Part shown: positions 3,386-24,903 of the stretch, in pieces | Layout of the letters: each line of letters starts with the position of its first letter | Position numbering within the stretch: position 1 is the first letter of the stretch | IMG/VR virus record: IMGVR_UViG_3300004151_000037 | Span: 1-26,864 of that record | Direction: 5' to 3' (one strand) | Length of the DNA stretch: 26,864 nt | From: a virus | The notes under the pieces: generated by a model | What the model saw: the letters and a program-made list of their open reading frames with translations, nothing else | What the model was told of the DNA's origin: nothing | The model's database searches: none | Position numbers and translations under genes: made by a program

Positions 3386-3394
3386 CTCCTCCTT
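3386..3394 (-). promoter_or_regulatory. Strong ribosome binding site of the 543-aa fibre gene
   Basis: AAGGAGGAG on the minus strand, 7 bases before ATG at 3378. It overlaps the TAA stop of the upstream 133-aa gene. Confidence 0.8.
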
Positions 3395-6529: not shown

Positions 6530-6532
6530 GGA

Positions 6533-9448: not shown

Positions 9449-9810
9449 GCGTCCTTCCGACCCTCGATCATGCATTCCCAGGTCTCAGTCTTGGCGGTCT
9501 TGCCATCAGCCTTGGATGCGCTCTCCTTCAGCACCTGGATGCCGCGGTAGGTGCGCTTGCCTCCGCCGACGTAGTAGGCGATCGCCGTGGCCGGGGTGGT
9601 CTTGGTCTCCAGGAACGGAATACGCTTGCCCTTGAGGGGCGGGGCATACTCGATGTTGATGCCGTAGGATCCGTTGACCTCGGCGTAGCCGTCGCCATCC
9701 AGCGTGGGCACGCGGACGCCGTGATCGACTTCCGTGTCCTCGATCGACACGATGCCGGGCCACTTGATCCCGTTCATGATGAAATCCACTCGTGCGATGT
9801 GCTGCGACAT
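9445..9810 (-). CDS. Tail tube protein, Mu gpM-like (121 aa)
   Basis: Subunit of the inner tail tube stacked beneath the sheath. The length and order (sheath, tube, chaperone, tape measure) match Mu L-M-41-42. The sequence is beta-rich: DFIMNGIKWPGIVSIEDTEV, then TLDGDGYAEVNGSYGINIEY and TYRGIQVLKESASKADGKTA, with the closing TWECMIEGR. Met12 (MNGIKWPG) is an alternative start, but the Met at 9810 has GGAG 9 bases upstream and sits 12 bases after the sheath stop. Family assignment is by order and general fold. Confidence 0.82.
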   Translation of the reverse strand: MSQHIARVDFIMNGIKWPGIVSIEDTEVDHGVRVPTLDGDGYAEVNGSYGINIEYAPPLKGKRIPFLETKTTPATAIAYYVGGGKRTYRGIQVLKESASKADGKTAKTETWECMIEGRKDA

Positions 9811-9822
9811 GTCGGTCTCCTA

Positions 9823-11247: not shown

Positions 11248-11555
11248 GGCGTTGCTCTCCGACGGCTGGTGGTGGTGGTCTGCTCGGGATCTGCGACGAC
11301 GGGCGCGCCGCCATCGGCGAGGTCAAGAGCGGATCGGGACGCGTCGTCGCTGGCGCTCAAGACCACCGATGGTGCGGTGGCGATCGCGGGCGTGGCATCT
11401 GGATCCGCCACCACATGCAGGTCACCCTCGGCGATGCGGCGACGGTAGTAGTGCGAGTTGATGATCGCGGTGGGGGTGCTGCCGATCGTTCCGGCCGCGC
11501 CTTCCATCGGGACAGATCGTCCCTCGGTGGCGACGACGTGCATGCGCTGGCTCAT
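11244..11555 (-). CDS. Mu gp38-like protein, DUF2635 type (103 aa)
   Basis: Small protein between the gp37-like gene and the sheath, the place of Mu gp38. The N-terminal half fits the DUF2635 pattern: a short beta strand (MHVVATEGRSVPMEG), then a bulky position and a basic helix ending YYRRRIAEGDLHVV. Relatives stop soon after 'GDL'; here 50 more residues follow, rich in Ala, Asp and Pro and probably disordered (DPDATPAIATAPSVVLSASD). Its function in the virion is not established. Both ends overlap neighbours by ATGA, so it is clearly translated in this operon. Confidence 0.8.
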   Translation of the reverse strand: MSQRMHVVATEGRSVPMEGAAGTIGSTPTAIINSHYYRRRIAEGDLHVVADPDATPAIATAPSVVLSASDDASRSALDLADGGAPVVADPEQTTTTSRRRATP

Positions 11556-12106
11556 GGGATGCCTTCCTCGGTCGTGAAGACCTGGGTGGACGTGATGGGA
11601 TCGCCTGCCTGCATCTGCTTGGGCTTCTGCAGCAGGGCGTACTCGGCGAAGATCTCCCGCATGTCGACTTCCTCCTCGTCGGAGATCGGGCCGTCAGGGA
11701 TACTTGAAGCCGTCGAGAAGCGGGCTTCAAAGACCACTTCTCCCAGCTCGTGCTGGTCCACGTTGGTCTTCTCGTCCCAGCCCTCGGGATCGATGGGATC
11801 GATGTCGAGGTCGAACGTCGTTCCCACCAGCTTGCGTACCGCGTACTCGACCATCTTGTGAACGATCTTGCGGCACTCGGACTCCGAGCCGATGTTGCAC
11901 GCCGAGATCAGCAGGATGATGTCGACCCGCTGGCTGTACGATCCCATGTCCTGGCGCGTGAATCGTCCACGCATCACCGCGACGTTCAGGCCAGGGACGA
12001 GGCTTTCCGGGAACTGTCCCACCTCGACCTTCTGGAAGGTCTCGTCGTCGACTGTGAAGAGGTTGTAGATGGCCTCCTCGATCAAGGCGTTTCCGACCAC
12101 GCTCAT
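11552..12106 (-). CDS. Mu gp37-like tail terminator/adaptor protein, DUF1834 type (184 aa)
   Basis: Corresponds to Mu gp37, in the head-tail joining group. It opens with NALIEEAIYNLFTVDDETFQ and has FTRQDMGSYSQRVDIILLIS, a typical terminator-like pattern of alternating strands and helices. The mid-helix ECRKIVHKMVEYAVRKLVGT and the beta segment GEVVFEARFSTASSIPDG follow. The last 45 residues are acidic and variable. It overlaps gp36 upstream and gp38 downstream by ATGA. The length is near that of the family. Confidence 0.85.
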   Translation of the reverse strand: MSVVGNALIEEAIYNLFTVDDETFQKVEVGQFPESLVPGLNVAVMRGRFTRQDMGSYSQRVDIILLISACNIGSESECRKIVHKMVEYAVRKLVGTTFDLDIDPIDPEGWDEKTNVDQHELGEVVFEARFSTASSIPDGPISDEEEVDMREIFAEYALLQKPKQMQAGDPITSTQVFTTEEGIP

Positions 12107-12558
12107 CGGTACCCTCCCAGGGACGCCATCGAATCCATGGTGAACTCGGGACGTCCGGTGCGAATCATCGCGCCGGACGTGGTGGGCGCGATCGGAGTGG
12201 CATCCACGGACGAGATGCCCAGGGACAGCTTCTTGTTCTGGATATCCCGCAACAGGTCCATGGCACCGTCGCGACGCCGATCGATGGGTGAATCCTTGAT
12301 CGCCTTGCCAACCCTCTCGTACACGTTGTACAGCGAGAGGTCGACGGCGATCTTACGGATGATCACGGGCACCGTGGCGAGCGGAAGAGTGACGCGCCCG
12401 CCGATGTAGCCGTCGATGACTCCGCACGCCAGCTCGATCATCTCCTCGACGATCGCGACATTGATTTCGCCCGCCTTGTTTGGATGGGCGTCATCGGTCG
12501 CTTCGATGAGGCGGATCGTCTGGATCCCCGTGCGCAGATCATCGACGGAGCAATACAT
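12103..12558 (-). CDS. Mu gp36-like head-tail connector protein, DUF1320 type (151 aa)
   Basis: Clear member of the Mu gp36 family: MYCSVDDLRTGI, then EEMIELACGVIDGYIGGRVT and LPLATVPVIIRKIAVDLSLY with NVYERV, the helical core common to phage head completion (HK97 gp6-like) proteins. The C-terminus (APTTSGAMIRTGRPEFTMDS) is short and flexible. It follows the major capsid gene by 3 bases. Expected role: a ring between portal and tail terminator. Confidence 0.92.
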   Translation of the reverse strand: MYCSVDDLRTGIQTIRLIEATDDAHPNKAGEINVAIVEEMIELACGVIDGYIGGRVTLPLATVPVIIRKIAVDLSLYNVYERVGKAIKDSPIDRRRDGAMDLLRDIQNKKLSLGISSVDATPIAPTTSGAMIRTGRPEFTMDSMASLGGYR

Positions 12559-12561
12559 CGA

Positions 12562-13545
12562 TCAGGCCGCCAGGAGCTTCACGCAGGCATCGGGAATGGT
12601 GCACAGCGAGAACGGGTTGGACTGGGCTTCCAGGTCGACGCCCTTGTTCCAGTCGATTTCCTTGGCCTTGGCGTAGAACTCCAGGCCGAGAGTGTTGACC
12701 GTCTCCATGTAATCGGCGGGCGAGAGGGTCTCGATGAACAGGCCTGGCGCGTTGGGGAACAGGTACGCCTCGCCGTCGGCGATGAAGTCCTTCCCACCCA
12801 CGCTCGCGTCGTACTCGATGAACTCGGTGCTGCCGAAAACGAAGCCGCCGCGCACGTCGATGGCATTCGTCTCGGCACGAGCCTGCCAGTTGGCGAAGGC
12901 GGCCTTGACATTCGCGTGGTTCGTGAACTGGTCCATGAAGCCGGGCGAGCACAGGGCGCGCGAGCCGTTGGCCAGCAGTCCGCCCAGCGACTTCTCGGAG
13001 GCGCGCTTGGCCTCCATGAGCTTGGTGCGCACCTCGGTCGCCGCGGTGGAGAGGGCCATGTTGACCGTCGTCTGGGCGACCTCGAACTCGGCGTACATGT
13101 CGGCGAGCACAGTCGTGCCATCGGCATCGAGGATCTGGCCCTTGATGGCACCCATGTGCTGCCACTCGCGGGTGACCACGATGTTGTTCTGCATCTCCTG
13201 CAGCTTCGAATTGACCACGTCTGCCACAGCTTCGGCCTCGTTCTCGCTGCCGAACTTGCGCACGCCCTGGGAGTCCTCAGCCAGCACCTTGCGGTACTGG
13301 GGAAGATGCGTCGCGGTGAACTTGCGCTGCGAGCGCTTTCCGCTCTTCACACTGGCTCCGGAAGCGCCGCGGGGCGCATCGGACACCAGGACGAGGCGTC
13401 CATCCAGCTGGTCGATCTTGATGGTTGTATCCCGGATCGGCTTGGCAATGAAGATGCCCAGCGACCGGATCTTGGTCGGGATCCGGGGCAGCTTGTTGAT
13501 GGAGGTGGTCAGACTCTGGATGGAGAACGATTCAGGAAGGGCCAT
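12562..13545 (-). CDS. Major capsid protein, lambda gpE-like (327 aa)
   Basis: Main shell protein of the lambda E family, as used by B3-like and many Mu-like phages. The start at 13545 (MALPESFSIQSLTTSINKLP) is chosen because GAGGA lies 5 bases upstream; a longer frame to 13692 gives an arginine/proline-rich leader that overlaps the decoration gene and looks non-coding. Features in order: SLTTSINKLPRIPTKIRSLG (N-arm), RKFTATHLPQYRKVLAEDSQ (E-loop side), MQNNIVVTREWQHMGAIKGQ, GRALCSPGFMDQFTNHANVK, then GKDFIADGEAYLFPNAPGLF and LEFYAKAKEIDWNKGVDLEA, the closing phrase of the family. The length is close to lambda gpE. It lies 67 bases after the D-type decoration gene, the same pairing as lambda D-E. 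Confidence 0.95.
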   Translation of the reverse strand: MALPESFSIQSLTTSINKLPRIPTKIRSLGIFIAKPIRDTTIKIDQLDGRLVLVSDAPRGASGASVKSGKRSQRKFTATHLPQYRKVLAEDSQGVRKFGSENEAEAVADVVNSKLQEMQNNIVVTREWQHMGAIKGQILDADGTTVLADMYAEFEVAQTTVNMALSTAATEVRTKLMEAKRASEKSLGGLLANGSRALCSPGFMDQFTNHANVKAAFANWQARAETNAIDVRGGFVFGSTEFIEYDASVGGKDFIADGEAYLFPNAPGLFIETLSPADYMETVNTLGLEFYAKAKEIDWNKGVDLEAQSNPFSLCTIPDACVKLLAA

Positions 13546-13612
13546 GGAATCCTCGCGATGTGGGTGGGGGCGCGTCCGGTCAGCGTCGACAGGACAGCAG
13601 GGTGGAGAGGGA

Positions 13613-14275
13613 TCAGATGGACTTGCGAGCGACGATGCTGCGTTCGCGGAGCTGGCGGAGGGCCGCGGCCTTCTGCGGGGCGGTGATTCCATCTGGCCAG
13701 GTCAGCTCGTCGGGATCGATCACGACTCCCCGCGGCACGGAAAGGACCTGCTGGTCGGACGTCGAGACGCTCATCTCCTGGATGGCGACGGCGGCAGCGT
13801 ACTGGGACCCGTCCACGGCCGAGAGGTTCAGAGGGGCGACCTTCGGGCGGCTTTCGCCGTCGAGAGCGGCTTCCGACACCGTGATGTCGAAGCCGTCGCC
13901 CGCCACGAAGGCGGTTCCACCCGCGGTAGTCACGAACTTGAGATCGTCGGCGAAGGCGGTGCCGTTGGAGCCATTGCCCAGGACGAACCCGTCCGGGTCC
14001 TCGACCGTGAACGCGGTCGCGGAGGTGAAGCGCACGGCGTAGACGCCAGGCTTCGCACCGGCCAGCACCGGCGTGGTCGCATCGAGGACCAGGGTGCCGT
14101 TGCCGGTGTTACCCGCCTTGGCAGCGGCCACGGCGGCAGCGATGAAGACCATGCCCAGGACGGTGCCGATCGTGGTCGCGCCACCCGCCTTGAGGGTGAG
14201 AGCCTCGCGACTCCAGGTGGGCGAGACCTCGTGGGTGACGACATCGGTGATGACGCGGGGAAAGGTGTTGCTCAT
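13613..14275 (-). CDS. Head decoration protein, lambda gpD-like (220 aa)
   Basis: Trimeric cement protein placed on the capsid. The N-terminus (VTHEVSPTWSREALTLKAGG, then GTVLGMVF) and C-terminus (DGSQYAAAVAIQEMSVSTSD, then VVIDPDELTWPDG) are the two halves of the gpD/HDPD domain. Between them, at about residues 55-135, is an insertion of the type GNTGNGTLVLDATTPVLAGA ... FTVEDPDGFVLGNGS ... GTAFVAGDGFDITV, a beta module often found in larger gpD relatives and making this about twice lambda gpD. The start overlaps the protease stop as TGATG. The final basic tail (RQLRERSIVARKSI) ends the protein. Confidence 0.9.
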   Translation of the reverse strand: MSNTFPRVITDVVTHEVSPTWSREALTLKAGGATTIGTVLGMVFIAAAVAAAKAGNTGNGTLVLDATTPVLAGAKPGVYAVRFTSATAFTVEDPDGFVLGNGSNGTAFADDLKFVTTAGGTAFVAGDGFDITVSEAALDGESRPKVAPLNLSAVDGSQYAAAVAIQEMSVSTSDQQVLSVPRGVVIDPDELTWPDGITAPQKAAALRQLRERSIVARKSI

Positions 14276-15456
14276 CAGTTGTACTCCTGTGCGGCTGCGG
14301 CGCGAGCCTCAGCATTGGCGATGATGGGATTGGTGGTGGGCTGAGGCTTGCGGCCATCGGGAAGCTCACCGAACTCGACGAGCTTCGGAAGGCTTCCGAG
14401 GATCTCCTCCAGTTCGGTGCGCACCGGATCGCCTTCGGCGAACGCGAGCTGACCGCTGGAGGACAGGGAGGTGAACAGCTTTCTGAACTTCGTGGCCAAG
14501 GCTGGCGAGAGACGTCCCTCGGCGATCGTCTGGTCCACCTTCTCGCCGAAGGCCTTCTCGTCGGCGGCGGCCCTCTGCTCGGCGAGCTTGCGGTTGGCTG
14601 CGTCCAGCTCGGACTGCACGCGGGCCAACTCGGCTGCCTGGGCATCCGGTGCGGCGGCTGGAGCGGGATCCGGAGCAGGAGGCGTCAGCGCTGCGGGAGC
14701 GGGATTGGCGGCGGCGGGAGCCGGGGTGGGTTCGGCGAAGGCGGGCGCGGCGCTGCCGTCGCTGGAGGTGTTGGCGGCGGGGTCGATGTTGCGAGGGATG
14801 TTGAGATCCTGCTCGATCTGCTTGATCTCCCAGTCCGGCAGGACTTTGTCGGCCGCTTCGACGCCATCCTTCTCGATCATCGCTTCGCGCTGGCGACGCA
14901 GGATCGATCCAAACGACTGGAGACGCCAAGCCAAGCGATTCAGCCATCCGCCCGTGACGGATCCCCAGTCGGTCGCCGCGCCGAAGGCGAGCGTGCCGTC
15001 GTCGGCCTCGGCGGAATCAGGGGCTTCGCCGAAGGCGAAACCGGGCTGCTCCTTCAGGGAAGGATTCCACGCGCCCAGAGCGCCAAGGTGGCGGAGCGAG
15101 CCGTCGCGGTTGAGCTTGGGAGAACTGTAGGTGTATTCTCCACGCTGGCAGGCCTCGCAGAAGGCGGGACTCAGGGTGTCGAGCTTGTACCAGGCGGCAC
15201 CATCCTCGCGCAACTCCACGTCCACGACGCTGCCGACGCGCGGGTCGTCGTGCTTGGGGTGGCCTGTCACCAGGGGCGGGACAGCCATCCCCGGGGCGAC
15301 CTGAGCCCTGACCTTGTCGACGTGTCTGGAAATGTCCTCGGACGTGAACGTGATCTTGTCGCCGCTCATCGAGGTGTGCGTTCCGGGATAGAGGCCCCTC
15401 ACCCATGGGTTGGCGGGGGTGATCGATTTCGGCGCTCGCTTGGTTGCGTTGGGCAT
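14275..15456 (-). CDS. Mu gpI-like prohead protease with C-terminal scaffold region (393 aa)
   Basis: Capsid maturation protease and scaffold of the Mu gpI type, first gene of the leftward late block. The protease half shows KITFTSEDISRHVDKV, VPPLVTGHPKHDDPRVGSVV, GEYTYSSPKLNRDGSLRHLG and LGALGAWNPSLKEQPGFAF, matching the family's 'GHP...' and 'lgaaltnnPal' phrases. Residues 225-275 are Pro/Ala-rich, then a heptad-like helix (AAELARVQSELDAANRKLAE), fitting a scaffold. In Mu the scaffold gpZ is made from an internal start; Met193 at 14880 is the only in-frame Met after residue 57 and would give 201 residues, though its ribosome site is weak. No good ribosome site precedes 15456. Confidence 0.9.
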   Translation of the reverse strand: MPNATKRAPKSITPANPWVRGLYPGTHTSMSGDKITFTSEDISRHVDKVRAQVAPGMAVPPLVTGHPKHDDPRVGSVVDVELREDGAAWYKLDTLSPAFCEACQRGEYTYSSPKLNRDGSLRHLGALGAWNPSLKEQPGFAFGEAPDSAEADDGTLAFGAATDWGSVTGGWLNRLAWRLQSFGSILRRQREAMIEKDGVEAADKVLPDWEIKQIEQDLNIPRNIDPAANTSSDGSAAPAFAEPTPAPAAANPAPAALTPPAPDPAPAAAPDAQAAELARVQSELDAANRKLAEQRAAADEKAFGEKVDQTIAEGRLSPALATKFRKLFTSLSSSGQLAFAEGDPVRTELEEILGSLPKLVEFGELPDGRKPQPTTNPIIANAEARAAAAQEYN

Positions 15457-15563: not shown

Positions 15564-15863
15564 ATGTCCGACGCTACTCAAGCTAACGCCTCGCCCCGGT
15601 CCGTCAAAGAAATTTTCTTCCGGCAGATCGAAAAACTGGGAGTCTTCAGTGTGCTCGCGGTTTTGCTGATCATGTTCAGCCAGAGCACGGAAAAGCGCCA
15701 GGCCGAACAGCAGCGCATCGACCAGACGCGGTGGGAGCAACTGTTCGCGCAGTACAGGGAGGACGCCCAGGAATACCGCAAGACGATCGAGGCCTGCTGC
15801 CACGATCGTCTGATTCGCCTGGAAGAAGCCGAGTTGGAGCGCTCGCGCAGGGGTGACCGATGA
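15564..15863 (+). CDS. Small membrane protein with coiled coil, upstream of terminase (99 aa)
   Basis: The first gene of the rightward late block. Residues 24-41 (KLGVFSVLAVLLIMFSQS) form one membrane segment; the N-terminus is short and soluble, and residues 43-95 form a long charged helix. Mu-like phages often have a small protein with this design (DUF2730 type, Mu gp25/gp26 area) just before the terminase genes, and small holins of the BhlA kind also look like this. I cannot choose between them. The ATG follows CTGACC without a good ribosome site; its stop overlaps the next start as ATGA. Confidence 0.72.
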   Translation: MSDATQANASPRSVKEIFFRQIEKLGVFSVLAVLLIMFSQSTEKRQAEQQRIDQTRWEQLFAQYREDAQEYRKTIEACCHDRLIRLEEAELERSRRGDR

Positions 15864-16282
15864 CCAAGCGCGAAGCACTCTACGAAGAAGCGCGCCGCCT
15901 GTACGTGGTCTTCGAGATGACTCTGCGTGCGATCGCGGCGCGCCTGGGCGTCTCCGAGCGCACGCTGCAGCTGTGGGCGAACGACAACAGGGACGGCAAG
16001 GGAACCTGGAACGAGCAGAAGGCTGGCTTGGTCGACGGCAACGAAGCGTTCCACGCCGAGCTGATCTCGATCGCCACCGTGCTCACGCGCCAAGCGAAGG
16101 AGGAGCTCCTCGCCGGGCAGCTCGACTGCAAGCTGATCTCGAGCCTGGATCGCATCGTGAAGGCGGCGTTGAAGGTGCTCGAATACGAGAAGAAGAGCCC
16201 GCCCAAGCAGGCTCCGAAGACGCCGGAAGAGAAGCGGCAGGCGATCAGCGGGAAGATCCGCGAGACGCTGGGACTGCGATGA
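15860..16282 (+). CDS. Terminase small subunit, DUF1804-like (140 aa)
   Basis: Expected DNA-recognition subunit of the packaging motor. The N-terminal helix-turn-helix reads EEARRLYVVFEMTLRAIAAR followed by LGVSERTLQLWAND, the pattern of DUF1804 small terminases of B3-like transposable phages. The middle helix region (AELISIATVLTRQAKEELLA) is an oligomerisation candidate. The C-terminal tail is basic (KSPPKQAPKTPEEKRQAISG). It overlaps the membrane gene and the large terminase gene by ATGA, which supports both starts and the function. Confidence 0.82.
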   Translation: MTKREALYEEARRLYVVFEMTLRAIAARLGVSERTLQLWANDNRDGKGTWNEQKAGLVDGNEAFHAELISIATVLTRQAKEELLAGQLDCKLISSLDRIVKAALKVLEYEKKSPPKQAPKTPEEKRQAISGKIRETLGLR

Positions 16283-17928
16283 GCCGGGATGCGCGCAAAT
16301 CGTCGAGCGTATCGACGAAGGGTGCGGGGGGCAAGCCGCGCCAGAAGCAGCCGCCACCACTGAGGCGGCAGGCACTCAAGGCGTCGACACGTCTCAAGGC
16401 TCCGCGTGCGCCGGACGATGCCACCGTGATCGCACCAGGCGATGTCCTTGCGCCGTTTGCGGATCTCCTGCTTCCATACCAGGCGAAGTACCTGCGCGAC
16501 CGATCGCAGCTGAAAAAGTTCGTGAAGTCGCGCCGTATCGGCGGAACCTGGACCCAGTCGCTGGAAGACGTCCTCGATTGCGTGGACAAGCCTGGGCTGA
16601 AGGTCTGGTTCTCGTCATCCGACCTGGGCGCGGGCAAGGAATACCTCGACTACGTGTGCATGTGGGTGGGAGTCGCCAACCTCCTGGTGCAGACCATCGT
16701 CGTTCCCGAAAACAAGATCGGCACCGGCGATGTCACCCCGGATGCGATCGAGGTTGCCGATCCATCAGAAGCGACCGCCACAGTGGTGGAGTTCCACAAC
16801 GGCTCGAAGATCACGATCCTGTCCAGCAGCCCTGGATCATTCCGCTCCAAAGGCGGGAAGGTGGTGCTCGACGAGTTCGCGCACCATGGCCGGGACAGGG
16901 AGTTGTGGAAGGCTGCTCAACCTGTCGCTGGCGCGTGGGGGTATGACATCCGCATCCTGTCCACCCTCAATGGCATGGGAAACGCATTCTACAGGCTGGG
17001 CAATCCGGAGTTCGAGCGACGAGCGCCCGAGGAACTGGACGACGACGAAGTGAACGAGAACGCATCCGAGGGGTGGTCCGTCCATACAGTCACGATCGAC
17101 CAGGCTGTTGCCGAGGGGATGTACGACCGGGTGATGGGGCGTCCCACGACGGAACAGGAGCGGGCGCGCTACATCCGCAAGCTGCGCCGCCAGTGTCTCA
17201 CGCAGGAACAGTTCAACGAGGAGTTCCGCTGCATCCCCAATGATGAGGCGCACGCGTTCCTTGCCTATCCGCTCATCGAATCGGCTGAGCGCGAGGAAAT
17301 CCTTGGGCTCGACCAGGTCGTTGGGCCGCTGTACGTCGGCATGGACGTTGGACGCCAGCGCGACTTGTCGGTGATCTATGCCGCGGAGCTGGTAGGCCAG
17401 ACGCTGGTGACTCGCCGCCTGGTCGAGATGCACAAGGAGCGATTCGCCGATCAGAAGATGAAGCTGTGGGAGATCCTGTCGCATCGATGCTTCGTGCGAG
17501 CATCGATCGATGCCAATGGTATCGGGGCGGGATTGGCTGAAGACGCACAGGAATTCTTCGGCGTCCATCGGGTCGATGCTGTTGTCCCGACTGCAGCCAT
17601 CAACGACGCGCTGGCGACGAGGATCCTGCAAGAGTTCGAGGACGGCACCATCCAGATCCCCAGGCATGAGCGGCAGAAAGAAGGACTGCACGCAGTTCGA
17701 AAGACCGTCTCCATCACGAACAAGGCGCGCTACGACGCCAAGCACGATGATGAGAATGGCCATGCCGACCATTTCTGGGCGCTGGCTCACTGTATCGCCG
17801 CGGCACGCACGGGCGGGCAAGCTCCGGCGGATGCGATCTCCAGGAACCACGCCGATGTTCCATCGTCGATGTTCGGCGGGTCGATGATCTCGCAGGTTCA
17901 CCTCGATTCGTGGGCGAGCATGCGATGA
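16279..17928 (+). CDS. Terminase large subunit, Mu gp28-like (549 aa)
   Basis: DNA packaging ATPase and nuclease. The start at 16279 (MSRDARKSSS) overlaps the small subunit's stop as ATGA; the frame is open further upstream but antisense-like there. The ATPase half has the deviant Walker A KSRRIGGTW (residues 83-91), common in Mu-type terminases where an Arg replaces the usual Lys position, Walker B KVVLDEFAHH (194-203) and the coupling motif LSTLNG (228-233). The nuclease half has GMDVGRQRDLSVIY (Asp355), RASIDANGIG (Asp411) and GHADHFWALAH (Asp497), three acidic metal ligands of the RNase H fold. The first 45 residues are basic and probably disordered. All key residues appear present, so the enzyme is likely active. 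Confidence 0.95.
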   Translation: MSRDARKSSSVSTKGAGGKPRQKQPPPLRRQALKASTRLKAPRAPDDATVIAPGDVLAPFADLLLPYQAKYLRDRSQLKKFVKSRRIGGTWTQSLEDVLDCVDKPGLKVWFSSSDLGAGKEYLDYVCMWVGVANLLVQTIVVPENKIGTGDVTPDAIEVADPSEATATVVEFHNGSKITILSSSPGSFRSKGGKVVLDEFAHHGRDRELWKAAQPVAGAWGYDIRILSTLNGMGNAFYRLGNPEFERRAPEELDDDEVNENASEGWSVHTVTIDQAVAEGMYDRVMGRPTTEQERARYIRKLRRQCLTQEQFNEEFRCIPNDEAHAFLAYPLIESAEREEILGLDQVVGPLYVGMDVGRQRDLSVIYAAELVGQTLVTRRLVEMHKERFADQKMKLWEILSHRCFVRASIDANGIGAGLAEDAQEFFGVHRVDAVVPTAAINDALATRILQEFEDGTIQIPRHERQKEGLHAVRKTVSITNKARYDAKHDDENGHADHFWALAHCIAAARTGGQAPADAISRNHADVPSSMFGGSMISQVHLDSWASMR

Positions 17929-18410
17929 CAAATTCCGACCAATTCGATTCCGACGAACCGGAGGACCGAGAATCCATGTCCATGAACAGCTACAGCGATG
18001 CGCCCTATATCATTCCGGGCCTGCGTGTACGCAGGGTGAGTCCGACGGAACGCGTCCGCCGCAGAAGCGATGATGACAACGTGCTCCGACGCGCTGCCGA
18101 ACCGCCGGATCTTCGAGACCTTTCAAAGACTTTGAAATCCGTGACGATTGAGGGCGGACCGAGCGGGGTTGTGAGACGGAAATTGCGGGGTTTTGAGACA
18201 AAACACCCCCCATCCACCCCCGCGGCGGATGCAGCCCCGATCACCCCGGAAATCGCAATGCCGATTCCTGGCGTTCTGAGGGGGGTAGAAGCGGGCGAAG
18301 AATTCGGAGTCCCGGATACTCGAGCGGACCCCCTGTGGCGATTTTTAAAAGGAGATCTAAAGGGTTTCCGGCGGTCCGGCGATGCCGACTCGGGCGCGGG
18401 GGGTGTCTGA
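17925..18410 (+). CDS. Hypothetical protein between terminase and portal (161 aa)
   Basis: Not recognised. The start at 17925 (MTNSDQFDSDEPEDRESM) overlaps the terminase stop as ATGA and its stop overlaps the portal start as TGATG, which argues it is translated. The sequence is low in hydrophobic residues, with acidic N-terminus, an Arg-rich part (RVRRVSPTERVRRRSDDDN) and Pro/Ala-rich middle, so mostly disordered. In Mu, gp28 and gp29 are adjacent with no such gene. The DNA here has several C and A/T homopolymer runs unlike its neighbours. It may be a lineage-specific addition or a poorly constrained spacer gene. Confidence 0.6.
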   Translation: MTNSDQFDSDEPEDRESMSMNSYSDAPYIIPGLRVRRVSPTERVRRRSDDDNVLRRAAEPPDLRDLSKTLKSVTIEGGPSGVVRRKLRGFETKHPPSTPAADAAPITPEIAMPIPGVLRGVEAGEEFGVPDTRADPLWRFLKGDLKGFRRSGDADSGAGGV

Positions 18411-19960
18411 TGCCCCGAAAAACCCCCAAAAAGCCAGGAAAGACGACCGATAACGGCGTTTTGCCCCTCAATTGGCCCCAGGATGGCCCGGCATTCGCCG
18501 AATCACTGTCCTCGGAGAACGAATACCTCGGCCGAGAGATGACCGTGCAGGGGTTGCGCCTGGTCATGTCTGATCTGTACGGCCTACCCAACCCGGACCC
18601 AATCCTGCGTGCCGAAGGGAAGTCGCTCTCCACCTACCGGACGATGGTCGACGACCATCTGTCGTCGGTGATGAGCAAGCGTCTGGCAGCCGTGCAGGCT
18701 CGTCCCTGGACCATCGAGCGTGGACAGGCGTCGGAAAGTGACGCCGACCACTTGCGACAGATCGTGTCGCGTCTCCCCGTGCGCGACATCGTCGAGAACA
18801 TTCTCTCCGCCGTCGGCATGGGGTACTCGGTCCAGGAGGTGATCTGGGGTATCGATGACGGCTGGATCGTACCACTGCGGATCAAGGACCGCCCGCCCGA
18901 GCACTTCCGAATGGGAATGCGCGGCGAGGCGCGATTCCTGGACGAGGCAGGGCGCAACGACATAGTCCCTCCTCGCAAGCTCCTCATTACGCGCTACCGC
19001 GCCGACAGCGACAATCCATACGGAAGACCGGTCTTGTCGGAATGTTTCTGGCCGCTGGCGTTCAAGCGCGGTGGCCTGAAGTTCTGGATGCTGTTCTGCG
19101 ACAAGTTCGGGCTACCCAAGACGGTGGGCAAAGTGCCCGCCTCGATGGGCGATGCAGAGAAGCTCGACCTGCTGCTGAAGTTGGAAGCGATGGTGCGTTC
19201 CGCCGCCGCGGTGATCCCGGAGGGTACCAGCGTCACGCTGCTGGAGACGAAGGCTTCCGGCGAACTGCCATTTCCTGCTTTGGTGAAGCAGAGCGAATCG
19301 GCGATGAGCAAGGCATGGCTGGGGGAGGTGCTGTCCACCGACACGCAGAGTACGGGGGGCACGTACGGCGCCCAGGTTGCCGCCAATGAGGTTCGGGCTG
19401 ATATCGCCCTCAACGACGCCAACCTGGTCGAGTCCAGATTCGACGAGCTGTTCAAGTGGATCTGGGAGGTCAACGGTCTCACCGGTCCGATACCCCCGTT
19501 CCACATCCACATGCCGGAGGATCTCAAAGCCGGTCGCCTGGAGCGCGACAAGGGGCTCCATGATATCGGAGTACGATTCACCCCCAGCTATTTCCAGGAA
19601 GCCTACGGCCTGGCTCCGGAGCATATCGAGCGCATCGACAATGGGGTGGACGCGGGGTCCTCCGCGTCCTCGGGTGCGGGCGCTGCCGGTCCGGCCTTCG
19701 CCGAGCCGATCGAGGCAGACAATGGAGAGGGCGAGCTGGCGCACCTCCTCGAATCGATGGCACCCCAGGAGCTTCAAGGACAGATGGAACAGGCGATGAA
19801 GCCTCTTCTGGCGGCGATCGACCAGGCGGGATCGTTTGGTGAGATCGAAGACGTCCTGGACAAGCTGATCCCGGACCTTTCGTTCGAGCAGTTCCAGGCG
19901 GCCATGACCAAGTGCCTGCTCCTATCCGAAACCAAGGGGCGCATGGATGCCCATGGATGA
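18410..19960 (+). CDS. Portal protein, Mu gp29-like, DUF935 (516 aa)
   Basis: Dodecameric portal through which DNA enters and leaves the head. Family phrases in order: TVQGLRLVMSDLYGLPNPDP, STYRTMVDDHLSSVMSKRLA, VQARPWTIERG, AVGMGYSVQEVIWGIDDGWI, NPYGRPVLSECFWPLAFKRG, FWMLFCDKFGLPKTVGKVP and STDTQSTGGTYGAQVAANEV. The C-terminal 100 residues form the clip/crown extension (LAHLLESMAPQELQGQMEQA). Start at 18410 (MPRKTPKK) by TGATG overlap; an upstream in-frame GTG at 18335 lacks a ribosome site but cannot be excluded. The size agrees with DUF935 portals. Confidence 0.95.
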   Translation: MPRKTPKKPGKTTDNGVLPLNWPQDGPAFAESLSSENEYLGREMTVQGLRLVMSDLYGLPNPDPILRAEGKSLSTYRTMVDDHLSSVMSKRLAAVQARPWTIERGQASESDADHLRQIVSRLPVRDIVENILSAVGMGYSVQEVIWGIDDGWIVPLRIKDRPPEHFRMGMRGEARFLDEAGRNDIVPPRKLLITRYRADSDNPYGRPVLSECFWPLAFKRGGLKFWMLFCDKFGLPKTVGKVPASMGDAEKLDLLLKLEAMVRSAAAVIPEGTSVTLLETKASGELPFPALVKQSESAMSKAWLGEVLSTDTQSTGGTYGAQVAANEVRADIALNDANLVESRFDELFKWIWEVNGLTGPIPPFHIHMPEDLKAGRLERDKGLHDIGVRFTPSYFQEAYGLAPEHIERIDNGVDAGSSASSGAGAAGPAFAEPIEADNGEGELAHLLESMAPQELQGQMEQAMKPLLAAIDQAGSFGEIEDVLDKLIPDLSFEQFQAAMTKCLLLSETKGRMDAHG

Positions 19961-21308
19961 AGAGGCATTCCGTGCCCAGTTCAGGAAGTCGCCCCAGGAT
20001 GTCGTCGCCTTCTTCCAGCAGAAGGGGTTGCGGGGGCCTGACAAGCACTGGGACTGGAGCGATACGCTGCGCCATGCGCACGATCGCGCCTTCGTGGTGG
20101 CCAAAGCGACCAGCCTGGATCTGCTCACCGACATCAAGGGCTCGCTGAAGACGGCCCTCGAACAGGGCCAGAGCCTTGGAAGCTGGAAGAAGGGGCTCAT
20201 CCCCAAGCTGCAGGAGCAGGGATGGTGGGGCAAGCAGGAGGTGGTCAACCCGAAGACCGGCGAGAAGCAAGAGGCCCAGCTGGGCAGCCCGCGTCGGCTC
20301 AAAACTATCTACGAGACCAACATGCGGACCGCCTACGATGCGGGCAAATACGCCCGCATGATGGAGGTGGTCGACTCCATGCCCTACTGGACATACATCC
20401 TGGGGCATGTGAAGTATGCGCACCGCCCCGAGCACCAGGTGCTGGAGGGACTCACATTCCGCTACGACGACCCGTTCTGGCGGACGCACTATCCTAGGCA
20501 GGGATACGGCTGTCACTGCGGTGTACGCAACGAGGACGCCGCCGACGTGGAGCGGCGCACCGGCAAGCCGCTCGACCAGGCGCTCCTCAAGAGTTCGCCC
20601 GAGGATTACCAGACCAAGGTCGTCGAGGTGCAGGGAAAGCAGATCGAGGTCGTCGGATACCGTCCGCCTGGATCCAGCCTGTGGGTCTACCCGCAGCCGG
20701 GGTGGGACTACGCGCCGGGCGATTTCTCGTGGCGCACCAAGCAATTGCTGGCCGATCGCCTAGTGGATCTGCCGCAGGGTACGGTGCGTACGGCGTTCCT
20801 GGGATACCTCAACCAGGCGGTGCGAGACGATTTCCGCCAGTACGTGGATGTGATCCAGAATACCGGCATCACCCGCAACGAGGTACTGGCGGTTCGGATG
20901 CTCGACGGCGAGAGCGTCCAGGCGCTTGCCGCGCAGTCCTTCCAGATCTCCAAGACGGCAAAGCCCCAGCAGTTGACGCTCTCGACCCCGCTGCTGCTGG
21001 TCACAGACCGCCAGCTGCTTCACGCCATCCGCGACGCCAAGAAGGCGGCGGGGATCGCCATGCCGCGCGAGTTGCTACAGCAGCTGCCTGAGTTGCTGCA
21101 GGGCTACGAGCTGCGGTGGGATCTCAAGGGAGCGCTCCTGGCATTCTCGGAACCCTTCAGGGCGCCCGGCAAGATCCAGAAGCAACGTTGGAAGGTCGTC
21201 TTCACCCCGTGGAACGCGGGACAGGGGCGGTTGCAACTGCGGTTCACGACGGCGTCAATGGTCGGCCACGATGCCATCTCGAACGGGACGGCGAGGCTGC
21301 TGCCATGA
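19947..21308 (+). CDS. Mu gp30 (gpF)-like minor head / morphogenesis protein (453 aa)
   Basis: Minor head protein with the SPP1 gp7 fold, thought to attach to the portal inside the head. The start at 19947 (MPMDEEAF) has AAGGGG 7 bases upstream and overlaps the portal end; Met at 19953 is the alternative. Residues 115-190 hold the conserved core: RRLKTIYETNMRTAYDAGKY, YWTYILGHVKYAHRPEHQVL, FWRTHYPRQGYGCHCGVR, with the family's H...L-x-G and PP-x-GY-x-C-x-C pattern. A C-terminal extension (residues 250-450) includes YRPPGSSLWVYPQPGWDYAP, typical of the Mu/B3 version. It ends by ATGA with a small frame leading to gpG. Confidence 0.93.
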   Translation: MPMDEEAFRAQFRKSPQDVVAFFQQKGLRGPDKHWDWSDTLRHAHDRAFVVAKATSLDLLTDIKGSLKTALEQGQSLGSWKKGLIPKLQEQGWWGKQEVVNPKTGEKQEAQLGSPRRLKTIYETNMRTAYDAGKYARMMEVVDSMPYWTYILGHVKYAHRPEHQVLEGLTFRYDDPFWRTHYPRQGYGCHCGVRNEDAADVERRTGKPLDQALLKSSPEDYQTKVVEVQGKQIEVVGYRPPGSSLWVYPQPGWDYAPGDFSWRTKQLLADRLVDLPQGTVRTAFLGYLNQAVRDDFRQYVDVIQNTGITRNEVLAVRMLDGESVQALAAQSFQISKTAKPQQLTLSTPLLLVTDRQLLHAIRDAKKAAGIAMPRELLQQLPELLQGYELRWDLKGALLAFSEPFRAPGKIQKQRWKVVFTPWNAGQGRLQLRFTTASMVGHDAISNGTARLLP

Positions 21309-21466
21309 TCAAGGAAGTGGAGAAGTGCGCACCGGGCGGCTGGCAAATCCCGCCATACAGATCGCCGCATCGCTGCGAAGCAATCTCAAGTGGCCCACCC
21401 CTTCCACTAACACAAGTGCGCCACATCTCCACCTGCCACCAATCTACCTCCGGAGGCATGCCTTGA
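21305..21466 (+). CDS. Possible coupling peptide between gp30 and gpG (53 aa)
   Basis: A small frame starting at ATG 21305, which overlaps the gp30-like stop as ATGA, and ending at TGA 21464-21466, which overlaps the TTG start of gpG as TTGA. It fills the otherwise empty 154 bases between the genes. The sequence (MIKEVEKCAPGGWQIPPYRS onward) is not recognised and not obviously protein-like. It may exist mainly to carry ribosomes to gpG, or be chance. Confidence 0.35.
   Translation: MIKEVEKCAPGGWQIPPYRSPHRCEAISSGPPLPLTQVRHISTCHQSTSGGMP
21451..21456 (+). promoter_or_regulatory. Ribosome binding site fixing a TTG start
   Basis: CGGAGG with 6-base spacing to TTG at 21463. The nearer ATG (21458) is immediately closed by a stop, so the TTG is the useful start of gpG. 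Confidence 0.65.
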
Positions 21467-21948
21467 GCAACAGCGAACCCAAGATCGTCGTATCTGACAA
21501 GGATCTCCGGGTACGGCTGGAGCACATGCGCCAAGCAGCCGCAGACTGGACGCCGGTGACGAAGCCACTGTCCCACAAGCTGCGCAACTCAGTCGACGAG
21601 AACTTCGCCGCTGGTGGCCGCTACGACCGCGCAGGATCCATCACCGGCGGGACGAAGAAGTGGGAAGCCCGCCAGGATGGATCGCCCAGCTTCCTGCAGG
21701 AGAGCGGGGTGCTGCGCGGGTCCATCATGCCTGAACACACCACGGATGACGCGACCGTGTCGACCAACATGGAATACGCCGCTGAAAACAACTTCGGACG
21801 GGTCTTGGGAGAGCGCTCCAGCCTGATGACCAAGCGGCGCAAGCAGGCGGGAGGCAAGCCGGCCAGGCCATTCATGGTCGTCCAGGCCCAGGAGGTCGAG
21901 GAGGCCAAGCGCTTGGGGCGCAGGCACATCCTCGGGCGTGGAGCCTAG
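21463..21948 (+). CDS. Virion morphogenesis protein, Mu gpG (gp31)-like (161 aa)
   Basis: Head-tail morphogenesis protein of the Mu gpG family, last gene of the packaging block. The start is probably TTG at 21463 (SNSEPKIVVSDKDLR), since CGGAGG lies 6 bases upstream and homology-like sequence begins here; the ATG at 21458 is out of frame and stops after two codons. Family phrases: LEHMRQAAADWTPVTKPLSH, LRNSVDENFAAGGRYDRA, SFLQESGVLRGSIMPEH, AAENNFGR and KPARPFMVVQAQEVEEAKRL. A longer in-frame read from 21271 overlaps gp30 and looks non-coding. The stop TAG shares the palindrome CTAG with the stop of the opposing activator gene. Confidence 0.88.
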   Translation: MSNSEPKIVVSDKDLRVRLEHMRQAAADWTPVTKPLSHKLRNSVDENFAAGGRYDRAGSITGGTKKWEARQDGSPSFLQESGVLRGSIMPEHTTDDATVSTNMEYAAENNFGRVLGERSSLMTKRRKQAGGKPARPFMVVQAQEVEEAKRLGRRHILGRGA

Positions 21949-22277
21949 TCTACGATGAGGCTCAACTGCTCTAGGGCGGGGGTGCGAACCACAGACGATG
22001 TCCTCGAGGGCGTCGCGTTGATGAGACGCTCGATCGTGCGGACGGAGCAATCCAGTGCACGGGCGATCTCGTTGGAGTTCTTGCCGTCCCAGTACAGGCG
22101 GATGTATCGCAACATGTATGTGCGCGGGAACCGTGTCGGGAGCTCGAAACGGGTGCCCTTCAGCTGGCGCCAGACATCGGCTGCGACGCGTACACCATGG
22201 CGCTTGGCGATGGTGCGGAGACTTCCCGCAGGGAGGTCTTCCAGCGTCAATGTGTCCCAAGCGTTCGGCAGGCCCAT
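21945..22277 (-). CDS. Mor/C-family transcriptional activator (110 aa)
   Basis: Matches the Mor/C activators that switch on middle and late promoters in Mu. The dimerisation part reads GSLRTIAKRHGVRVAADVWR, then TRFELPTRFPRTYMLRYIRL and YWDGKNSNEIARALDCSVRT with IERLI, the family's helix-turn-helix (about 68-87) after the 'eFnG-x-N' turn, here YWDGKN. The last 22 residues are a variable tail. It is alone on the minus strand, convergent with gpG, and opposite in direction to the packaging genes. A TATATT box ends 6 bases before the ATG, so the mRNA would be nearly leaderless if it is the promoter; no ribosome site is visible. It is the likely activator of the divergent late region at 15457-15563. 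Confidence 0.85.
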   Translation of the reverse strand: MGLPNAWDTLTLEDLPAGSLRTIAKRHGVRVAADVWRQLKGTRFELPTRFPRTYMLRYIRLYWDGKNSNEIARALDCSVRTIERLINATPSRTSSVVRTPALEQLSLIVD

Positions 22278-22301
22278 GTCGGCAATATACGCTCGATCCG
22301 C

Positions 22302-22331
22302 TTTTCAAGGGGGTTCAAGCCCCCTTGAAAA
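22302..22331. repeat. Perfect 30-nt dyad between activator and methylase genes
   Basis: TTTTCAAGGGGG (22302-22313), loop TTCAAG, then the exact complement CCCCCTTGAAAA (22320-22331). The twelve-base arms match fully. It lies 25 bases upstream of the activator start and 10 bases before the methylase start. There is no T-run after the GC stem on either strand, so it reads better as a regulator binding site or RNA control element than as a terminator. Confidence 0.8.
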
Positions 22332-22341
22332 CCTCTTCCAC

Positions 22342-23010
22342 ATGCATCGAAATCCCCCCATAGCAGACCCCACCACATCCAATTCCCCGCAGAGCATCAA
22401 CGACATCAACGGCGACCTGGTCAACCTATACCGCGTCGTGCAGCACCATCTGGACGAATTTGTCCGCCAGTTCCGGTGGTCGTTTATCAGCCGCGATATC
22501 TTCAAGTGGCTCAAAGCCACGCCGGAAGAGACGCTGACCGACATCCAGCGCGCGACGAGGATCTTCTACCTCCAGAAGCTCTGCTTCGGGGGCAAGGTCG
22601 ATTCGAGGACGTTCGGTACGGCGACCACGGGAGGCCCCCGGATCAACCTCCTGCGGCTGGAGGAAGATCTCTCGATGGCGCATCTTCGTCTGGCTAAGGC
22701 CACCATCGAACATCTGCCATGGGACGACTGCGTGCGCCGCTACGACCGCCCCCATACGCTCTTCTACTGCGATCCTCCCTACTGGGAGACAGAGGGATAC
22801 GGGGTGCCATTCGCACGTGAGGAGTACGACCGCCTCGCAGAGATGGCCCGCACCATCAAGGGGCGGATGGTCATCTCGGTCAACGACCATCCGGAGATGC
22901 GACATGCATTCAAGGGGCTGCGCATCGAGCGGACCGACTTGCGCTACACCGTGGGCGGTGGTGCCAATGCCACCGAGCCACGGGGGGAACTCATCATCCG
23001 GTCCTGGTGA
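22342..23010 (+). CDS. DNA adenine methylase (D12/Dam class), N-terminally truncated (222 aa)
   Basis: Related to phage N6-adenine methylases of the D12 class. What remains: SINDINGDLVNLYRVVQHHL (about 18-37), the ATRIFYLQKLCFGGKVDSRT segment typical of phage enzymes, catalytic DPPY (144-147, in LFYCDPPYWETEGYG), MVISVNDHPEM and the closing GELIIRSW. What is missing: motif X (the early GGK) and motif I (PFxGxG), the SAM-binding part that normally occupies about 40-60 residues before the NDI segment. An in-frame ATG at 22276 would add 22 residues read across the dyad (including FQGGSS) but does not restore motif X. So the protein is probably inactive, or is a decaying gene; it ends with a good terminator. 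Function in Mu-type phages would be protection of DNA from host restriction. Confidence 0.75.
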   Translation: MHRNPPIADPTTSNSPQSINDINGDLVNLYRVVQHHLDEFVRQFRWSFISRDIFKWLKATPEETLTDIQRATRIFYLQKLCFGGKVDSRTFGTATTGGPRINLLRLEEDLSMAHLRLAKATIEHLPWDDCVRRYDRPHTLFYCDPPYWETEGYGVPFAREEYDRLAEMARTIKGRMVISVNDHPEMRHAFKGLRIERTDLRYTVGGGANATEPRGELIIRSW

Positions 23011-23068: not shown

Positions 23069-23305
23069 TTACCACCTGTCGTTCCGGTCCTCGGGAGGCT
23101 GCCAGAGCCCGTAGGAACCCATATCGCGGCGGAACATCTTGCCTCGCTCGACCAGGTGTTCCGCATAGGCAGACTCTTTGGTTCCAGGATCGAACTCCCA
23201 GATCGTGCCGTAGATGTCAAGGCCGGCCTCCTTCCGGAGGATGACGAAGAAAGCAAGAAGGAATCCTCCAACGCTCGCAATGTTGCTCCAGTCAGAAAGC
23301 GTCAT
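23069..23305 (-). CDS. Small membrane protein (78 aa)
   Basis: Not recognised. Residues 8-23 (NIASVGGFLLAFFVIL) form one membrane segment, followed by a soluble charged part (RKEAGLDIYGTIWEFDPGTK and EHLVERGKMFRRDMGSYGLW). It overlaps the upstream 91-aa gene by ATGA and is the last gene of the leftward lipoprotein operon. Co-transcription with lipoproteins suggests an envelope role, but nothing more can be claimed. Confidence 0.68.
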   Translation of the reverse strand: MTLSDWSNIASVGGFLLAFFVILRKEAGLDIYGTIWEFDPGTKESAYAEHLVERGKMFRRDMGSYGLWQPPEDRNDRW

Positions 23306-23577
23306 GGTGGATCCGTGCTGATGGTCTTCGTCATCGCGTCGATCTCATCGAGCGTGGCGACATGGTGATCCAGATGCTCTGCCTCTGCGCGGGCTACGGT
23401 CGCGGCTGCAATCGCGTAGCCGGAGTGGCCGCGGTGCCAGGATCCCAATACGGCGTCGTCTGCGTAGATCGCGACCAAGACGGCTCCCGCGCCGTCGCGC
23501 TGGAGCCAGACGGCGAAGCGGGCCAGCTTGGCGGCGAGGCGGAATAGGAGCCAGGAGAGGAGTCGGCGGGCGGTCAT
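23302..23577 (-). CDS. Hypothetical protein (91 aa)
   Basis: Not recognised. The N-terminus is basic and amphipathic or weakly membrane-seeking (ARRLLSWLLFRLAAKLARFA), then AGAVLVAIYADDAVLGSWHR and a helix rich in Ala, Glu and His (TVARAEAEHLDHHVATLDEI). It overlaps genes on both sides by ATGA, which supports translation. It may be membrane-associated through the N-terminal helix. Confidence 0.65.
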   Translation of the reverse strand: MTARRLLSWLLFRLAAKLARFAVWLQRDGAGAVLVAIYADDAVLGSWHRGHSGYAIAAATVARAEAEHLDHHVATLDEIDAMTKTISTDPP

Positions 23578-24023
23578 TGAAGAGGAAGACTCAAAAACGA
23601 TTTCTCTGCTCGCGACTCCGTACAGACAGCAACGCAGGCGCTTTTCCCAATGAGTACAGAGTCTCCATCTGGGTTGATCGAGAAGTAGCAGTTGTGTCTA
23701 TCTGCGCGAAAATCTACAGGAATGCTCCCGGGCCTATCTGTGATGCGTAATACGACGTCGACGTCGATGTGAGCCGGGCCCGCTCCTATTTCGCGATAGG
23801 TTGAGCTAATCCCTGCAAGCGATAGGTCATCACTATAGGTGATGATCCCTGGGCAGGCTCGGAGAAGCTTTGGCCACGCCTGAAGCACGTGCAGTTTCAT
23901 TGAATCGGTTGCGTTAATTCTCGATAGGTCGAGATTGTTTGGATCAAACCTCTGGCTACCGGAACAACTGATCAATGCTGTGGCCGTTGCAATGCATAGA
24001 GCATGAGAGACAATTCTTGACAT
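23574..24023 (-). CDS. Lipoprotein, paralogue 1 of a duplicated pair (149 aa)
   Basis: Signal peptide MSRIVSHALCIATATALISC with lipobox LISC, so Cys20 should be lipidated after export. The mature part shares with the 24300-24752 product the pattern DLS...DS-x-K...W-x-K...ACPG...Y-x-DL-x-L...DVVLR...IP-x-x-F-x-A...NCY-x-x-I...C-x-AVC. Four cysteines of the mature domain (in ACPG, NCY and C-x-AVC) are conserved, fitting two disulfides in the periplasm. The ATG has GGAG 5 bases upstream; its stop overlaps the 91-aa gene by ATGA. The family is unknown to me. Position on the repressor side of the prophage suggests expression in the lysogen, so a role in changing the host envelope or in blocking other phages is a reasonable guess only. 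Confidence 0.78.
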   Translation of the reverse strand: MSRIVSHALCIATATALISCSGSQRFDPNNLDLSRINATDSMKLHVLQAWPKLLRACPGIITYSDDLSLAGISSTYREIGAGPAHIDVDVVLRITDRPGSIPVDFRADRHNCYFSINPDGDSVLIGKSACVAVCTESRAEKSFLSLPLQ

Positions 24024-24299
24024 TCAGACTCCAGTATCTGCGGCGGTTATGGTGGGCGGTTCGGACGGGGAGCGGGGGCGACATGGATGCGGTTGCCTTG
24101 GCTGGCAACGACGATCAGTATTCGTTACCGAGGATCCCGACCGTGTTGACTGCCCCACCGTCGGAATGGATCCTGCTGGCAGCTTGAGTCAGCAGGGAAC
24201 CGGTGGCAGGACGCAGTGCGGCGGATCATTGGATTTGATGTGGATGCTGAACCAGAAGCCTGGCGGCGAGGTTGCGGGAGTAGAGCATAGCAGATCGTT
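24024..24299. other. Intergenic stretch between the two lipoprotein genes
   Basis: 276 bases without a convincing intact gene. It contains repeat copy 1 (24047-24134), which looks like a decayed small-gene end on the minus strand, and a GTTGCC/GGCAAC dyad inside it. The rest (24135-24299) shows no similarity to the second copy and no recognisable signal. Confidence 0.6.
24047..24134 (-). repeat. Repeat upstream of lipoprotein 1 (copy 1, decayed small gene end)
   Basis: About 83% identical by eye to 24813-24903. Read on the minus strand it encodes ILIVVASQGNRIHVAPAPRP with NRPP and a TAA stop, matching the end of the small frame in copy 2. Here a stop codon and a two-base gap break the frame before it. 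It contains GTTGCC-TTGGCT-GGCAAC, an inverted repeat. Confidence 0.7.
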
Positions 24300-24752
24300 T
24301 CATCGAGCGCTTGGCAGAGACTCTGTGTAGTAGGTCGTATCGATCCATTTGTCCTTGCAGACGGCGATGCATGGTCGCTTGGAAATGGATAGGATTGATC
24401 CGTTCGCCGAAATGCCGTAGTAGCAGTTCTGTCCCCAGGCCTTGAATGCGTTCGGGATCGCTGTTGGCTGCTCCGACACGCGCAGCACAACGTCGACCAA
24501 TCCAGGATCACCATCCGGCACGTTTCGGCGCACATCATTCAGTTCTACAAGTTGTAAGTCGCTCTTATACGCCGTGAATCCAGGACATGCCGCCTGGACC
24601 TTCTTCCAATTCTCGCGAACCAATTTCTTGGCTGATTCGTCTCCTGATACCGCACTTAAATCCAGTTCCAGCGGCTTATTGGCGCATCCGATGACGTAGA
24701 GCGCAGCAATGACGACGAGGACAGCGCCGCTATTACGAGATGCCTGTTTCAT
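24300..24752 (-). CDS. Lipoprotein, paralogue 2 of a duplicated pair (150 aa)
   Basis: The start at 24752 (MKQASRNS) has AAGGA 8 bases upstream and gives a normal signal peptide with lipobox VIGC (20-23); a longer frame to 24803 would add a non-signal leader. The mature domain (LELDLSAVSGDESAKKLVRE, QAACPGFTAYKSDLQLVELN, GLVDVVLRVSEQPTAIP, NCYYGISANGSILSISKRPC, AVCKDK) is a clear paralogue of the 149-aa protein, with the same four cysteines. It is transcribed from the repressor side toward paralogue 1. The two share only moderate identity, so the duplication is old or the genes were acquired separately. Function unknown. Confidence 0.78.
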   Translation of the reverse strand: MKQASRNSGAVLVVIAALYVIGCANKPLELDLSAVSGDESAKKLVRENWKKVQAACPGFTAYKSDLQLVELNDVRRNVPDGDPGLVDVVLRVSEQPTAIPNAFKAWGQNCYYGISANGSILSISKRPCIAVCKDKWIDTTYYTESLPSAR

Positions 24753-24812
24753 GAATGGATCCTTGGACGATGGAGGACGTTGCGGTATACGAGACATGTG
24801 CACGGTACGGTG

Positions 24813-24903
24813 TTAGGCGGGGCGGTTTGGACGGGGAGCGGGCGCAACTTGGATGTGGTTGCCTTGGCGGGCAATCACGATCAGCGTTCGTTGCCTTGAC
24901 GAA
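24813..24903 (-). repeat. Repeat upstream of lipoprotein 2 (copy 2)
   Basis: Direct counterpart of 24047-24134, lying at the same place relative to the lipoprotein gene. Differences between copies fall mostly in third codon positions of the frame ending NRPA/NRPP, with five synonymous changes, so the repeat probably descends from coding sequence. Confidence 0.7.

Follow-up and report, generated by a model that had tools for sequence, protein, structure and literature searches.

Organisation of the locus

The window analysed here is a virus record of 26,864 bases, the early genes of which run off its right end. Divergent from the first of these early genes is an HTH gene that occupies the same place as an HTH gene in a second record with the same gene order (L050) and that, from its position and family, can be named a putative repressor (Table 1). 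Behind it on the minus strand lie the genes for two lipoproteins, designated A and B here, and for two small proteins, with a convergent Dam-type methylase gene as the boundary on the far side. A preliminary description of this DNA had reported two paralogous lipoproteins with lipoboxes and four matching cysteines, followed by two small proteins of which one has a membrane segment, all joined by ATGA overlaps. The gene content is as reported, and the membrane segment can be placed at the N-terminus of the 78 amino acid protein. The overlaps, however, are found only at the junctions of B with the 91 amino acid gene and of that gene with the 78 amino acid gene: 128 nt separate the repressor from A and 276 nt separate A from B, and with gaps of this size the four genes do not form one tight operon.

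Table 1. Features of the lipoprotein locus (coordinates are those of the window)
Feature	Coordinates	Strand	Remarks
First early gene, 65 aa	25405..25602	+	divergent from repressor; 56% identical to a 63-aa gene in the same place in L050
Repressor-like HTH gene, 149 aa	24881..25330	-	operon head; weak match to PHROG 638 transcriptional regulator (E 3e-4) and YdaS-type HTH
Leader repeat copy before lipoprotein A	24812..24895	-	84 nt, 83% identical to 24046-24129
Lipoprotein A, 150 aa	24300..24752	-	signal peptide, lipobox VIGC (...LYVIG/C), 128-residue mature domain, four Cys
Leader repeat copy before lipoprotein B	24046..24129	-	84 nt
Lipoprotein B, 149 aa	23574..24023	-	paralogue of A, lipobox LISC (...ALIS/C), same four Cys
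Small protein, 91 aa	23302..23577	-	ATGA overlap with B; amphipathic N-terminus, no clear membrane segment
Small protein, 78 aa	23069..23305	-	one hydrophobic N-terminal membrane segment; ATGA overlap with 91-aa gene
Dam-type methylase, N-terminal part missing	22375..23010	+	convergent; bounds operon on other side

The two small proteins differ in what can be said of their relatives. For the 91 amino acid protein, a search of the family databases and of the related loci found no homologue. The 78 amino acid protein has a 106 amino acid homologue in L050 (35%, E 3e-16), where the gene also stands at the end of the operon and is also joined to its predecessor by an ATGA overlap. The Dam-type methylase of the window aligns to an Escherichia coli phage Dam protein from residue 47 onwards only. 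In L050 and in Klebsiella phage KP12 the protein is full-length, so that the window form lacks around 46 N-terminal residues, including the PWIGGKRR and EPFCGG parts; the truncation means either that the gene is broken or that the assembly is in error.

A transposable phage with an inverted head module

The plus strand of the window encodes terminase, portal, gpF-like and tail-completion proteins, and the minus strand the head protease, major head protein, sheath, tape measure and baseplate proteins. A Mor-like gene is also present. The same gene order is seen in L050 (35,125 bases), the closest relative, including the inverted module that runs from terminase to tail completion, and as L050 encodes a Mu-type transposase and MuB-type proteins, the window can be taken as part of a transposable phage. 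It is best read as a phage of the BcepMu/KS10-like kind.

The terminase-portal-gpF-tail completion module (15853-23010) is opposite in direction to the capsid-tail module (1-15456), an arrangement found also in L050 and L058. That this is an artefact of assembly was ruled out, since L050 is an independent record and is ordered alike, and the inversion is thus a feature of the lineage. Burkholderia phage KS10 likewise keeps its protease and capsid genes separate from the terminase module. For two ORFs on the plus strand of the window (15564-15863 and 17910-18410), within its terminase-portal stretch, no convincing family match was found.

Two old copies with a well-conserved leader

Lipoproteins A and B are about 34-35% identical, with 53% positives over 148 amino acids (E 6e-28). 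Their coding DNA is 44% identical and third codon positions only 28%, which is about chance level; because these positions are saturated, the two copies are old. The 84 nt leader repeat that precedes each lipoprotein gene, and that is C-rich on the transcribed strand, is conserved to a far higher degree than these genes. Its similarity reflects either strong constraint or recent copying from one place to the other. Inspection by eye ruled out a coding sequence, the differences between the two copies not being of the synonymous kind, and folding gave no support for a stable RNA structure (z -0.27 and -0.56). The repeat has no match in Rfam and is absent from all of the relatives' loci, in which it was sought. 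The possession of separate leader copies suggests that A and B are controlled separately but alike.

Duplication of a secreted prophage protein had been seen in the preliminary description as fitting a race with other phages or a surface change of the host. The data do not support a race. Two copies are found in the window only, every other locus read being single-copy, and these two copies are old. For the lipoprotein gene, dN/dS is about 0.12-0.16 in both enterobacterial and Burkholderia-type relatives, with few usable pairs in the Burkholderia group. These values are similar to those of the repressor and DUF3102 genes; the lysis lipoprotein evolves faster than the lipoprotein of this family, and the transposase more slowly. 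This is ordinary purifying selection, not a race.

A scattered family of phage lipoproteins

Scans of viral and genome collections with the single proteins found no relatives, and the first of these were reached by tblastn against plasmids and phages. With A as query, this identified a protein encoded on a plasmid of Eleftheria terrae (E 1e-9) and, weakly, gene 283 of Klebsiella phage KP12, which lies between Dam and the repressor as in the window. Matches to Vibrio phages were dropped, as they comprise a piece of 27-32 residues inside a 2.8-kb structural-type gene. Profiles built from two and from four sequences recover the relatives of A and B, and profile searches of IMG/VR yielded 16, then 21, then 5 loci (several of these being the same record), with one further locus in Pantoea stewartii and one more in a genome (L046). 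The members are carried by BcepMu/KS10-like transposable phages, by prophages of E. coli, Klebsiella and Pantoea, and by one plasmid. Prophages with one subtype alone occur in 20 of the 5,426 complete genomes of E. coli, strain CFSAN051542 being one example of a strain in which the gene stands between those for the repressor and Dam, and everywhere the domain was met it is annotated as a hypothetical protein. Since homologues exist in many other phages, the A and B genes are more than chance reading frames; on these matches the family is a real one, scattered across phages.

When a profile was built for the mature domain, it recovered A, B and the relatives, with E values of 1e-39 for A and 5e-37 for B (both of which were included in that profile), and had no match in KS10. 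Pfam, NCBIfam, PADLOC and the PDB sequences yielded no match to the lipoprotein domain family. No family had been recognised in the preliminary description, but 17 of the 18 aligned members match PHROG 10002, a family without known function, with a best E value of 1.7e-17 and mostly at profile positions 215-324, that is, in its C-terminal part. Taken alone, A and B of the window match this profile weakly (E 0.025 and 0.045, respectively). The mature domain of A and B can on this basis be assigned to the PHROG 10002 C-terminal domain family, membership being claimed for the domain only. The N-terminal part of the profile, corresponding to a protein of 196 amino acids that is considered below, is found neither in A and B, which begin with the signal peptide and lipobox, nor elsewhere in the window.

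Structure, cysteines and anchoring

Remote homology searches and structure prediction, which the preliminary description had proposed for the mature domains, gave the PHROG 10002 match on the one hand and, on the other, confident models that resemble no solved fold. The AlphaFold models of A (pLDDT 88.8, pTM 0.82) and B (pLDDT 90.8, pTM 0.85) show the same order of elements: helix, short helix, two long strands, two further strands, helix, strand. Searches of solved structures with the two models returned weak matches only, with a best Foldseek E value of 0.27-0.3 and Z scores up to 3.9 and 4.4. Among these rows were cystatin-like proteins, a colicin M immunity protein, a T6SS immunity protein and AcrIIA11; none stands out and no inference was drawn from them.

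Besides the cysteine of the lipobox, A and B have four cysteines at matching positions that are conserved through the family and are complete in 19 of the 24 members compared. The first and fourth (C1 and C4) have been lost together in four enterobacterial members, and the second and third (C2 and C3) together in L046; no member has lost a single cysteine. Loss in pairs only suggests the presence of two disulfides, C1-C4 and C2-C3, as the likely arrangement, one that fits an exported protein.

From the signal peptides and lipoboxes we infer that A and B are exported lipoproteins. Most members have a lipid anchor, whilst those in L041, L044 and L046 have an N-terminal membrane helix and the E. 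terrae protein an ordinary signal peptide. The residue that follows the lipid-carrying cysteine varies (A, S, G, E, D, T or K), so a fixed place at the outer membrane is not likely to be essential.

Genomic position of the lipoprotein gene

The preliminary description had placed the genes where prophages keep those used in the lysogen. This holds for the window and for much of the family. The lipoprotein gene lies directly behind the repressor and on the same strand in the window, L050, L049, L042 and the enterobacterial type (L018-L022, L024, KP12 and E. coli), and one gene further behind it, again on the same strand, in the Burkholderia type. Behind the repressor is the commonest position of the gene. 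It does not hold for L043, L044 and L051, where the gene stands before lysis genes (in L043 and L044 after Mor), nor for L046, where it is antisense in the tail operon, between the tape measure gene and a gpN-type gene. On the E. terrae plasmid no phage genes are adjacent in the stretch read. With its positions scattered in this way, the gene behaves like a moron.

The slot behind the repressor can also be filled by other genes, unrelated lipoproteins being found there in KS10 (gp11) and L057. Coordinates for unrelated lipoproteins behind the repressor and a 196-aa-type gene are 749-1336 in L057 and 7650-8258 in L054. In L042 a secreted staphylococcal-type nuclease (7658-8170; Pfam 2e-25) is encoded directly behind the lipoprotein in the lysogeny operon. 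L044 encodes a secreted protein of 126 amino acids before Mor (5847-6227) that looks nuclease-like by eye (VDC...HAIEFDF..KW), for which Pfam gives no support.

A short motif, GxVGQxAxGDI / VAGRD, is common to the C-terminus of the repressor and the N-terminus of the product of the next gene (~196 amino acids) in L007-L017 (for example L011, 4904-6721), L054 (8251-9309), L056 (1408-2470) and L057 (1360-2367). In L007-L017 it recurs at the N-terminus of small two-helix membrane proteins encoded behind the lipoprotein. Such a motif, within a single operon, resembles one for docking or co-assembly.

A possible role in superinfection exclusion

What might these proteins do? We tentatively read A and B as periplasmic proteins of the lysogen that may serve in superinfection exclusion, a reading to which we would give somewhat less than an even chance. 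It is suggested by the combination of a lipid anchor, a lysogeny-side position and exchangeability for unrelated lipoproteins in related phages (KS10 gp11, L057), the occupation of one slot by unrelated lipoproteins being expected for an exchangeable envelope function. On this reading, the locus would be a lysogeny-side accessory (moron) operon of a BcepMu/KS10-like transposable phage, transcribed from the repressor side in the lysogen and giving rise to two lipid-anchored alpha+beta domains, each predicted to have two disulfides and to face the periplasm, together with the 91 amino acid protein and the one-helix membrane protein. The domains would lie in the periplasm near the inner or the outer membrane, where incoming phages would be stopped at or just after ejection of their DNA, and with two copies more kinds of phage would be excluded.

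Several known systems offer comparison. In Streptococcus phage TP-J34 the lysogeny module encodes the lipoprotein Ltp, which is transcribed in the prophage and stops DNA injection (PMC3952083). Likened by description, it shares with A and B the lysogeny-module location, the lipid anchor and a small extracytoplasmic domain (PMC3952083), but its host is Gram-positive, and expression and exclusion have been demonstrated for Ltp whereas for A and B they are proposed. Among other exclusion proteins, some carry an N-terminal membrane helix, and a soluble periplasmic one is also described (PMC3952083). In coliphages, the exclusion lipoproteins Lpp021 and Lpp010 have been proven by expression (PMC11893012). 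These proteins, from the mEpimmI coliphages, resemble A and B in being lipoproteins from phages of Gram-negative hosts and in occurring as several unrelated types among related phages; again likened by description, they differ in that their genes lie in the structural cluster (PMC11893012). Closer in genomic setting is KS10 gp11 (NC_011216), a lipoprotein in the same slot, with the repressor, gp12 and gp11 genes on one strand, although it does not match the family profile and lysis genes directly follow it. No link of sequence or fold to a proven exclusion protein was found through Pfam, NCBIfam, PADLOC, the PDB sequences or fold searches. With exclusion lipoproteins of the Ltp/Cor/Lpp type, A and B share a signal peptide with lipobox and a gene position on the lysogeny side.

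Counting for exclusion are the repressor-strand position in the window and L050, with the putative lysis genes of L050 on the opposite strand, the moron behaviour, the occurrence of three modes of anchoring as in published exclusion proteins, the paired loss of cysteines and the nuclease neighbour in L042. Counting against it are the lack of diversifying selection and the location of the gene just before lysis genes in L043, L044, L051 and the Burkholderia type. Exclusion is a known kind of phage accessory function and not, for these proteins, an established one. Were it true, A and B would represent a new family of exclusion proteins with a fold unseen among solved structures, in transposable phages of both Burkholderia-like and enterobacterial hosts, and the existence of an E. 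coli homologue makes the domain testable at once in laboratory E. coli.

Alternative roles

The lipoproteins could instead act on behalf of the host, changing the envelope of the lysogen in a manner that has nothing to do with phages (lysogenic conversion). Lambda Bor is a phage-encoded envelope lipoprotein of the lysogen that alters the envelope in this way. Bor, A and B are all phage envelope lipoproteins, but no Pfam match connects them: neither Bor nor any other Pfam lipoprotein family was matched by A, B or 16 relatives at E values up to 1. The moron-like scatter and repressor-side position would suit conversion as they suit exclusion, as would the plasmid member with no phage genes adjacent in the stretch read, and purifying selection is what a steady function would produce. 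Near-confinement of the family to transposable phages speaks against a service to the host, and we regard conversion as unlikely, if worth keeping in view.

Alternatively, the periplasmic domain might sense the envelope and inform the repressor side whether lysogeny should be kept, in which case the cytoplasmic partner in the Burkholderia type would be the product of the preceding gene, the 196 amino acid protein with a C-terminal membrane tail. The PHROG 10002 profile (328 positions) covers this protein at positions 6-167 and the lipoprotein domain at 218-324. A profile that covers both proteins implies that a fused protein should exist, yet no fused ORF was found in 185, 398 and 391 genomes and 12 records. 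What was found, in L007 (5380-6384), is the two genes side by side in a shared frame, interrupted by a single stop. The topology fits such a scheme (cytoplasmic part, membrane tail, periplasmic domain), and the motif common to the repressor tail and the 196 amino acid protein is consistent with it. Against this, such a partner is missing from the window, from L050 and from the enterobacterial type, and in KS10 and L057 it is unrelated lipoproteins that lie behind the partner. A sensor of this kind is distinctly unlikely. The fuller version, in which a signalling system would lead from envelope to repressor with the domain as its periplasmic half, fused to or paired with the 196 amino acid protein, such that the prophage reads envelope events (the arrival of another phage, for example) and acts on lysogeny or on a membrane effector, is quite improbable. 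If true, signalling to the repressor would add a new means by which prophages sense the envelope.

A role in periplasmic DNA handling, as partner of secreted nucleases or guard alongside them, with its target either the DNA of incoming phages or transforming DNA by which the prophage might be cured, is decidedly improbable. It draws on the neighbourhood of the gene in three relatives: the secreted nuclease directly behind it in L042, a small secreted cysteine-containing protein behind it in L050 that has a weak Ada-Zn-like match, and, on the E. terrae plasmid, a thermonuclease gene at a distance of 6 kb. The last of these is not adjacent, however, and neither the window operon nor most relatives have a nuclease.

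Least probable is a lysis-associated lipoprotein, spanin-like or a regulator of the holin: the gene does stand directly before holin or endolysin genes in L043, L044 and L051, and two to three genes before lysis genes in the Burkholderia type, but the L046 copy is antisense in a tail operon, and in the enterobacterial phages the convergent Dam gene intervenes and the lysis cassette has a lipoprotein of its own. The preliminary description had allowed that the domain might prove to be that of a known lysis lipoprotein. In the window lineage this is improbable: the operon contains no lysis gene, and in L050, which shares the architecture of the window, the holin-like, DUF5675 and spanin-like genes lie on the early strand, around 6 kb from the lipoprotein gene and opposite to it, a distance and orientation that argue against a lysis role in this lineage.
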